Of a DNA stretch of 23,652 nucleotides, positions 18,796 through 19,817 are shown in pieces. The position numbers were made by a program, and so were the translations under genes. The notes below the pieces were generated by a model. The model did not search any database and was not told where the DNA came from. It saw only the letters and a program-made list of their open reading frames with translations. The stretch spans positions 1 through 23,652 of IMG/VR virus record IMGVR_UViG_3300025585_000169; one strand, 5' to 3'. Numbering within the stretch: the first letter of the stretch is position 1; every line of letters begins with the position of its first letter. Source of the stretch: a virus.

Positions 18796-18805
18796 TTGCT
18801 ACTCC

Positions 18806-18909
18806 TTGTTAAAACCTGTTAAGGTCTAGTAATCTTAACGACTTGTTAAGTATCTTGTCTAGTGGTTTTCCCTAATCCCGACTGATTTGTTAAGGTTACA
18901 ATGTTAAGG
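18806..18909. promoter_or_regulatory. Divergent control region with GTTAAGG operator-like repeats
   Basis: Copies of GTTAAG(G) occur at 18818-18824, 18845-18850, 18889-18895 and 18903-18909. There is an inverted copy at 18834-18839 and a degenerate copy (GTTAAAA) at 18808-18814. The copies at 18834-18839 and 18845-18850 form a 17-bp dyad, the size of a lambdoid operator. The two right-hand copies are 14 bases apart and flank a -10-like TACAAT (18897-18902) for rightward transcription. The Cro-like protein encoded at 19238 is the obvious candidate to bind here. Confidence 0.55.
18832..18861 (-). promoter_or_regulatory. Candidate leftward early promoter
   Basis: On the - strand, TAGACA (18861-18856, 5 of 6 bases of the -35 consensus) is followed after 18 bases by TAAGAT (18837-18832, 4 of 6 of the -10 consensus). 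This would start transcription near 18825, about 30 bases before the first ATG at 18795. The dyad CTTAAC-GACTT-GTTAAG (18834-18850) lies inside it, so a bound regulator would block RNA polymerase. Confidence 0.5.
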
Positions 18910-19221
18910 CTGGTCAGAAAAGGGTTAGCGCCTTGTGGCTCAATGTGTCAAATTTCAACCACCACTCTGCTTTATGAGGCTGACCAGCACCAACACGCAT
19001 GGGGATTGGCTGACTTGCACCAGTTCCGAAAGGATAGGGTGGCGGAAACGCCGGGAACGCCCAACAGTCCCCAGCCGTGTTGGTGGCAACGTAGCCATAA
19101 CGGATGACGCTTAGTCTGTGGATTCACGGATGATGCGCCCATCGAGGTCGGGAGCCGACTTTCAAAGGCTGTAACCTTGGGAACCCGTGCGGGACTGGAT
19201 GCATACAGTCTGCCACCAACA
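18909..19221 (+). ncRNA. Putative structured RNA / long leader before Cro-like gene
   Basis: More than 300 bases without a credible protein. Complementary segments read directly: GCTGGTCAG (18909-18917) with CTGACCAGC (18980-18988). ACCAACACG (18989-18997) with CGTGTTGGT (19076-19084), extended inside by TGGGGA/TCCCCA (19000-19005, 19068-19073). GGCG-GAAA-CGCC (19041-19052) with a GNRA loop. GTCGG-GAG-CCGAC (19147-19159). GACTG/CAGTC (19193-19197, 19206-19210). TGTTGGTGGCA (19078-19088) also pairs perfectly with TGCCACCAACA (19211-19221), excluding the second helix. Base composition is richer in G+C than the flanking genes. It resembles no riboswitch or ribozyme that I know. It may be a leader of the cro-like mRNA or a separate small RNA. 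Confidence 0.42.
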
Positions 19222-19237
19222 ACCTTTAAGGAAAACC

Positions 19238-19456
19238 ATGAATTTACAAAAAGCCATTGAAATCGCCGGATCAAAGAGTAAACTGGCGACCCTTCTCGGA
19301 GTGTCTCGCGCTGCTGTTACTCAGTGGGACGAACTTCCTGAGAAGCGTATCAACCAGCTCAAGGAAATCAACGAATGGCAAACCCATTTCAGTGGCGAAC
19401 AGGCGAACAATCCATTGGTGTCGAACTCCAACGTCAGCGAGACAAGTCCACAATGA
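19238..19456 (+). CDS. Cro-like / YdaS-type DNA-binding regulator
   Basis: 72 residues from ATG 19238, with AAGGA (19228-19232) five bases upstream. Residues 1-45 (LQKAIEIAGSKSKLATLLGV, then SRAAVTQWDELPEKRINQLK) contain a compact helix-turn-helix (KLATLLGVSRAAVTQW) as in Cro and YdaS proteins. The C-terminal 25 residues are polar and probably disordered. It is the first protein of the rightward operon, the place of cro in lambdoid phages, so it most likely represses early promoters through the GTTAAGG repeats. No CI-like partner is visible in this window. Confidence 0.8.
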   Translation: MNLQKAIEIAGSKSKLATLLGVSRAAVTQWDELPEKRINQLKEINEWQTHFSGEQANNPLVSNSNVSETSPQ

Positions 19457-19566
19457 CCACGGTTCGCAAGGACGATCAGAATAAAGAAGAAACAATTACC
19501 AAGTTCAGAAAGTCAATCACGATTCTTCCGTCAGTACATCGTTTACCAAGCAAGGCAAAGATATGA
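19453..19566 (+). CDS. 37-aa hypothetical peptide
   Basis: The ATG at 19453 overlaps the regulator stop (ATGA) and the stop overlaps the next start (ATGA). The product MTTVRKDDQNKEETITKFRK, then SITILPSVHRLPSKAKI, is basic and polar with no recognised motif. There is no clear ribosome site; translation would depend on coupling. It may be a real small protein or only a link carrying ribosomes to the next gene. Confidence 0.42.
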   Translation: MTTVRKDDQNKEETITKFRKSITILPSVHRLPSKAKI

Positions 19567-19706
19567 AAAAACTCATCGCGGTTTACCTAACAGTCCTGGC
19601 ATCAACAGCATGGGCTTGCACGACTCACACGGTTGTCTCCGGTGGTCGGATCGTCACTTGTACGACCTGCTGTTACGGAAGTAATTGCACAACCAACTGT
19701 TTTTAA
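19563..19706 (+). CDS. 47-aa secreted Cys-rich peptide
   Basis: A short frame, ATG 19563 to TAA 19704-19706, overlapping the previous stop (ATGA). MKKLIAVYLTVLASTAWAC is a signal sequence with cleavage probably after TAWA (residue 18). The Cys at 19 could alternatively be lipidated, although AWAC is a poor lipobox. The mature part has six cysteines (CTTHTVV, VTCTTCCYGSNCTTNC) in 29 residues, so it probably folds in the periplasm with disulfides. I recall similar small Cys-rich signal-peptide proteins in aquatic phages. An early gene exporting a disulfide-rich peptide may act on the envelope or exclude other phages; that is inference. Confidence 0.62.
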   Translation: MKKLIAVYLTVLASTAWACTTHTVVSGGRIVTCTTCCYGSNCTTNCF

Positions 19707-19719
19707 TATAGAATGTTTT

Positions 19720-19787
19720 GAAACACGGCTAGGTCTGAAGTCATGAGCAGACCGAAAAGGGTTACACCTTCCCCTGCCGATTGTTTC
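19720..19787 (+). ncRNA. Compact three-way-junction RNA element before replication gene
   Basis: In the 111-base gap before the replication gene, GAAACACGGC (19720-19729) pairs with GCCG-AT-TGTTTC (19776-19787; AT is a two-base bulge) to close a domain. Inside are GGTCTG/CAGACC (19732-19737, 19748-19753) and AAGG/CCTT (19757-19760, 19767-19770) or, alternatively, GGG/CCC. This gives two hairpins on one closing stem in 68 bases. It does not match a riboswitch or ribozyme core known to me. Likely roles are antitermination (compare the put sites of HK022 in size and plan, not sequence), RNA processing or control of the downstream gene. Confidence 0.42.
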
Positions 19788-19817
19788 TTCTAAAGGTGGT
19801 AAAAAAGGTGAAATTCA

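Follow-up and report, generated by a model that had tools for sequence, protein, structure and literature searches.

The RNA encoded at 18909-19221 of the window, the 23,652-nt stretch of IMG/VR virus record IMGVR_UViG_3300025585_000169 that was analysed here, is most likely composed of three tandem tRNA-shaped, non-decoding domains (18909-18989, 19001-19073 and 19079-19221), and in every one the closing stem is of the tRNA-acceptor type, with an unpaired A after it. The second and third domains, designated A and B, represent a family in which two tRNA-type stems stay almost unchanged around interiors that are swapped. This is most likely a large phage RNA family that has previously gone unlisted. 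No Rfam family corresponded to it, and our literature search, in which subscription journals were thinly covered, returned no paper on such elements.

A structured RNA upstream of the cro-like gene

The plus strand of 18909-19240 folds to -126.4 kcal/mol (z = -2.93), and none of 100 shuffled sequences equalled or bettered this value, whereas the minus strand reached a z of only -0.58 against its shuffles. The structured RNA that the initial annotation had read from the letters is therefore real, and the pairings and coordinates it listed for this stretch were all exact when checked against the sequence. Folded separately, the domains gave z values of -1.8 (18909-18989), -3.3 (19001-19073) and -3.6 (19079-19221), with -5.7 for domain 2 together with its flanks (18990-19085). 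The absence of a credible protein was also borne out: open reading frames cross 18909-19221 mechanically and are unconserved among relatives, and homologue lengths differ by 1 to >200 nt with no regard for frame. No Rfam family reached its gathering threshold in the window, and none appeared for 18909-19221 even at E<=5, in agreement with the earlier view that the RNA matches no familiar riboswitch or ribozyme.

The -10-like box from which the 5’ end had been predicted was confirmed, as was the lack of a -35 match for this promoter in the window, and a 5’ end at 18909 is plausible (Table 1). Immediately upstream (18805-18908), repeated GTTAAG/CTTAAC half-sites surround the divergent promoters and are probably repressor operators. 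The relative L053 has a different early promoter (2761-2789, TTGACT-17-TAAGAT), the -10 of which again ends just 5’ of domain 1.

In the window phage, the unpaired A of domain 1 (18989) is followed by CCA (18990-18992). The leader that separates domains 1 and 2 contains ACGCAT, which is almost invariant among copies, and a U precedes the first G of domain 2 in 197/200.

Table 1. Features of the window RNA and its flanks.
Feature	Position	Strand	Description
-10-like box TACAAT	18897..18902	+	From sequence; predicted transcription start at ~18908-18909, the first base of domain 1
Domain 1 (family B1)	18909..18989	+	9-bp acceptor-type stem, GCTGGTCAG (18909-18917) complementary to CTGACCAGC (18980-18988); unpaired A 18989
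Domain 1 arms	18922-18932 and 18965-18978	+	Loop-loop contact of AGC 18927-18929 with GCT 18969-18971
Domain 2 leader, CCAACACGCAT	18990..19000	+	ACG pairs with CGT 19076-19078
Domain 2 (A), 73 nt	19001..19073	+	Stem GGGGATTG 19001-19008/CAGTCCCC 19065-19072; unpaired A 19073
Domain 2 interior (payload)	19009-19064	+	Contains two GNRA loops
Spacer GCCGT, domain 2 to domain 3	19074..19078	+	GCCGT in 194/200 copies of a set whose selection required CCGT
Domain 3 (B)	19079..19221	+	Stem GTTGGTG(GC)/(GC)CACCAAC, GTTGGTGGC (19079-19087) complementary to GCCACCAAC (19212-19220); unpaired A 19221
Domain 3 interior	19088-19211	+	Large and branched; part of domain 3
Shine-Dalgarno AAGGA of the cro-like gene	19228..19232	+	Just beyond domain 3; retained in empty-site relatives
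cro-like gene, 72 aa	19238..19456	+	Same gene 3’ of both empty and filled sites

A family of elements in uncultured phages

The stems of domains 2 and 3, each with its unpaired A (GGGGATTG..CAGTCCCC-A and GTTGGTG..CACCAAC-A), recur almost unchanged in over 100 IMG/VR contigs, which represent at least 33 groups of phages. Exact matches to a left-arm 20-mer (18991-19010) were found in 39 other IMG/VR contigs, all 39 of which had the right arm, CAGTCCCCAGCCGTGTTG, within 160 nt; when the start of domain 3 (the B stem) was used to pick contigs, domain 2 was present upstream in 40 of 42. Selecting copies by their arms imposes part of the observed arm conservation, a bias from which these two tests (39/39 and 40/42) are exempt. 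As the sole query, the right arm retrieved more than 119 IMG/VR stretches. Shared proteins placed the first 148 carrier contigs in 33 groups, and the downstream neighbours of the elements in these contigs belonged to 51 gene families. A-B units are tandemly repeated in other phages.

Both arms occurred in only one of 50,697 named phage records. An 18-mer gave four exact matches in bacterial and archaeal species-representative genomes, all without the right arm, and we rejected these as chance. Therefore, within the data searched, the family is one of uncultured phages. Close DNA relatives among the named phage records were Manatee Spring assemblies only, and host searches with the terminase and tape-measure proteins returned only distant relatives with mixed hosts.

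Between co-directional genes, 71 copies lay in the sense orientation and 10 in antisense, as counted from crude gene calls, and copies were also found at operon starts (48) and ends (28). Elements often stand just 5’ of an HTH gene similar to that for the terminase small subunit (27 of the 132 that have a same-strand downstream gene); this is seen in the terminase region of many carriers, L006, L064 and L090 among them. In the window, the cro-like gene is followed at 19564-19706 by a small, cysteine-rich, secreted-looking peptide (MKKLIAVYLTVLASTAWACTTHTVV..CTTCCYGSNCTTNCF), and small ORFs resembling it also adjoin the elements in L091 and L130.

The frame of the elements is related to tRNA

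In some copies the frame has the identity of a tRNA. Matches to Rfam RF00005 in L116, L136, L129 and L130 begin exactly at the G of GTTGGTG and end on the A after the 3’ strand. A further 16 RF00005 matches start at GTTGGTG; they come from a set chosen for its D-arm start and include several near-identical copies. ARAGORN, run blind, called GGGGATTG..CAGTCCCCA of L100 as a tRNA without a proper anticodon, the call ending exactly at CCCC-A. A canonical T arm lies beside the 3’ stem strand in 5/161 B copies and 5/154 A copies, compared with 0.02 and 0.06, respectively, in shuffled sets. The genomic surroundings also include tRNAs: ARAGORN made a tRNA call within 400 nt of 19/181 elements (10.5%, one of the 19 being the L100 element itself), always on the same strand, as against 1.7% of random positions. 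Real phage tRNAs adjoin the elements in L011, L103 and L258, with CCA common to both.

Of the features of RF00005, the 7-bp acceptor stem and unpaired discriminator base are present in domains 2 and 3 and in their relatives. The D arm and the T arm with its TTCRA loop are absent from the window and present in a minority of relatives, and relaxing the threshold to E<=5 still yielded no match of the window domains to the Rfam tRNA model. A 7-nt decoding anticodon loop is lacking even in the best tRNA-like copies (the loop is 10 nt in L116, and the region is expanded to 141 nt in L130). Since the anticodon arm has been replaced or expanded, no copy examined appears capable of decoding; in most copies, the window’s included, the D and T arms are replaced as well. 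Unlike tRNAs, the copies have neither an anticodon nor a conserved CCA: no CCA is encoded after the stems, the A of domain A being followed by GCC and that of domain B mostly by ACC or ACT. The ACG/CGU leader-trailer pairing around domain A is likewise unlike that of an ordinary pre-tRNA.

Covariation supports the stems and some interiors

The compensatory changes that the initial annotation had looked to homologues to provide were found. Family B1, to which domain 1 belongs, has 50 copies. Their closing stems are of many kinds and include those of A and B. Across the 41 distinct sequences of the family, 93% of cells were paired and 15 of 20 pairs had changed on both sides; double-change cells numbered 124, compared with 34 when shuffled and 9-32 with slid partners (0/500). 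The contact between the arm loops switches in step between AGC/GCU and GGC/GCC in 42/42, and resembles the elbow formed by the D-loop and T-loop of tRNA. Positions 6 and 7 of the B stem covary (132 and 129 of 161 copies paired, versus 120 and 100 when shuffled; 0/1000), and compensated variants of the A stem occur, though rarely (GAAGACTG/CAGTCTTC and GGGTATTG/CAGTACCC, for example). Within the interiors, a hairpin and a pseudoknot covary in one seven-member A family. Shuffling as done by the counting tool leaves relatedness in place; in view of the slid controls and of the number of independent pair types, relatedness is an unlikely cause of the covariation signal.

The A interiors of L006, L013, L010, L019, L026, L027 and L164 form a payload family with the pattern GTACACGA-six bases-CGTGG, in which the loop varies yet remains palindromic (CTGCAG, GGCGCC, GATATC, CTATAG, GACGTC), as in kissing-loop dimers. 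Palindromic kissing loops were rejected as a general rule, as they were found in 17 payloads versus 11 in shuffles.

Interiors are exchanged within constant stems

The window locus, identified by the same cro-like gene, was found in 18 related contigs, some of them near-identical, which between them have several different interiors. Seven of these alleles are empty (3-4 nt insert), three contain A only, and eight, including the window, contain both A and B. Clustering all copies by sequence yielded 96 families of A interiors and 103 of B interiors in mixed pairings, such that a single A interior can sit beside up to six B families. The A interior of the window recurs solely in L166, where it accompanies another B; this is too few for covariation. 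A 17-mer search with the domain 3 interior of the window found no relative.

Two exclusive helices are neighbouring stems

According to the initial annotation, 19078-19084 can pair either with 18989-18995 or with 19215-19221, giving the RNA two exclusive states. Both helices can indeed form exactly in the window, where CACCAACACG (18988-18997) is complementary to CGTGTTGGTG (19076-19085). The bases GTT serve twice, at the outer end of the A leader/trailer helix and within the B stem. In 85/200 copies, however, the leader (AAG, TAC or ATC) cannot pair fully with GTT and the longer upstream helix is impossible, and 80 of these 85 retain GTT. As GTT is kept where the leader cannot pair, its conserved partner is the B stem, and the switch is not conserved. 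The two helices are adjacent stems, one from each of two domains, with three bases in common.

A second conserved RNA in the window

Another conserved phage RNA, which has no relation to the tRNA-like domains, lies at ~19721-19810 and has no Rfam gathering match in the window. A -10-like box, present in 55 of the 60 full copies, is followed by GAAACACGGCTAGGTCTGAAGTCATGAGCAGACCGAAAAG-hairpin-CCTGCCG..GTTTC..AAGGNG, and a 16-mer from this RNA occurs in 103 IMG/VR stretches. Changes within one stem base pair are coordinated across the 60 full copies (A/CT 34, G/CC 15, C/CG 11), and a loop pairs with the downstream stretch in 50 of them, compared with 12 when the tails were shuffled.

Discussion

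The nearest designed analogue of these elements is the synthetic tRNA scaffold of Ponchon and Dardel, which expresses RNAs in E. coli (PMC3753655). Common to both are an acceptor stem, D and T arms (in some phage copies) and a foreign RNA in place of the anticodon arm; the phage elements differ in being natural and tandem, with two fixed acceptor types and with D and T arms mostly replaced. GOLLD and ROOL are large structured phage RNAs that are often near phage tRNAs, and GOLLD sometimes contains tRNAs (PMC12286853). Our elements are likewise structured phage RNAs near tRNAs, but they consist of separate domains of 70-150 nt, in which constant stems enclose variable interiors, rather than of one large fold; no GOLLD or ROOL covariance model matched in the window, and RF00005 alone matched across 52 carrier loci. 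The stable RNAs C and D of phage T4 are non-tRNA stable RNAs in a tRNA cluster, and thus resemble the elements as non-tRNA RNAs encoded with phage tRNAs; to our knowledge they are single loci and non-modular. As in tmRNA, a tRNA-like acceptor domain bears another structured RNA, with no match to Rfam tmRNA families or to ARAGORN tmRNA. The BOX elements of Streptococcus pneumoniae are modular intergenic sequences with alternative internal modules that form RNA stems. The phage elements are similarly modular and intergenic, with alternative interiors; unlike the bacterial BOX elements, they are phage-borne, tRNA-framed and sense-oriented.

Starting from the family and its stems, their covariation, the sense orientation, the polymorphism and the module swapping described above, we propose that the elements are probably natural tRNA scaffolds with swappable payloads, arranged in the window as tandem tRNA-like, non-decoding domains at the 5’ end of an early transcript. 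A near-invariant acceptor stem with its unpaired A, accompanied in some copies by D and T arms, would frame an interchangeable interior that replaces the anticodon region. Scaffolds A and B, in that order, would move together as one cassette. Phages would gain, lose and re-assort this cassette, presumably through recombination inside the conserved stems. Host tRNA-processing enzymes may recognise the frame, and RNase P would cleave on the 3’ side of the conserved U that precedes each stem; the frequency of this U is consistent with such processing. The acceptor-type stem may also invite 3’ end enzymes. Processing would release stable small RNAs from the mRNA and keep the cro ribosome site (19228-19232) accessible. 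The interiors could then have a function in trans: they might, for instance, be decoys for host RNA-binding or defence proteins, or inhibit such proteins. Roles of this kind in host conflicts would fit the variability of the interiors. More tentatively, phages might share a recombining library of structured RNA effectors, probably anti-host or anti-defence, carried on two universal tRNA-type scaffolds.

A rather unlikely alternative is that the elements punctuate operons, the folds serving as mRNA processing sites or protective caps, and the interiors mattering only as stable folds. tRNAs punctuate mitochondrial transcripts, and sense intergenic copies at the starts, middles and ends of operons would suit such a role, as would the start of domain 1 at the expected transcript start, with its stem closing the 5’ end, and the ribosome site just beyond domain 3. 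Punctuation alone, however, leaves unexplained the many separately conserved, covarying interiors that recur in unrelated phages.

We consider it very unlikely that the element is a selfish or recombination DNA element (a MITE, an integron attC-like site or a REP-like hairpin) whose structure acts as single-stranded DNA. Presence/absence polymorphism, module shuffling and the inverted-repeat ends of A-only alleles are as such an element would have them, but the strong bias of the copies towards the transcribed sense orientation, covariation in which G-U pairs are tolerated and loop-loop contacts take part, and tRNA cloverleaves within the same frame all argue for RNA. Target-site duplications were not seen in alignments of empty and filled sites, and an unsystematic look among the recurrent neighbour genes revealed no dedicated transposase. 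The integron attC R’/R’’ core is GTTRRRY, from which GTTGGTG departs when judged by eye.

Least probable of all is the cis-acting leader envisaged in the initial annotation, switching translation of the cro-like gene between two exclusive states: it has in its favour that the RNA is flanked by a divergent promoter and the ribosome site of cro, and that the two helices can form in the window, but the same elements precede 51 gene families and stand at operon ends, the cro-like gene of close relatives has the element empty or with very different interiors, the longer helix cannot form in many relatives that keep GTT, and the pattern expected of a riboswitch or leader, with alternative helices conserved ahead of a single type of gene, was not found. 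Nor did evidence emerge for an antitermination RNA resembling HK022 put, a pair of stem-loops that acts on RNA polymerase; Rfam gave the stretch no hit of any kind. What stands of the earlier reading is a long, unnamed structured RNA in the plus direction rather than a cro-specific switch, and of its three hypotheses a phage small RNA comes nearest to the tRNA scaffolds that we favour.

If these are indeed natural tRNA scaffolds, phages used the tRNA-scaffold trick ahead of biotechnologists. A large, unannotated phage RNA family would be defined that is retrievable with two sequence anchors, and ~100 natural structured RNA parts would be available for testing against host systems. A single locus, with its empty, half-filled and full alleles, would show the modular evolution of RNA domains. 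An effector library of this kind, if true, would be the RNA counterpart of anti-defence gene islands.
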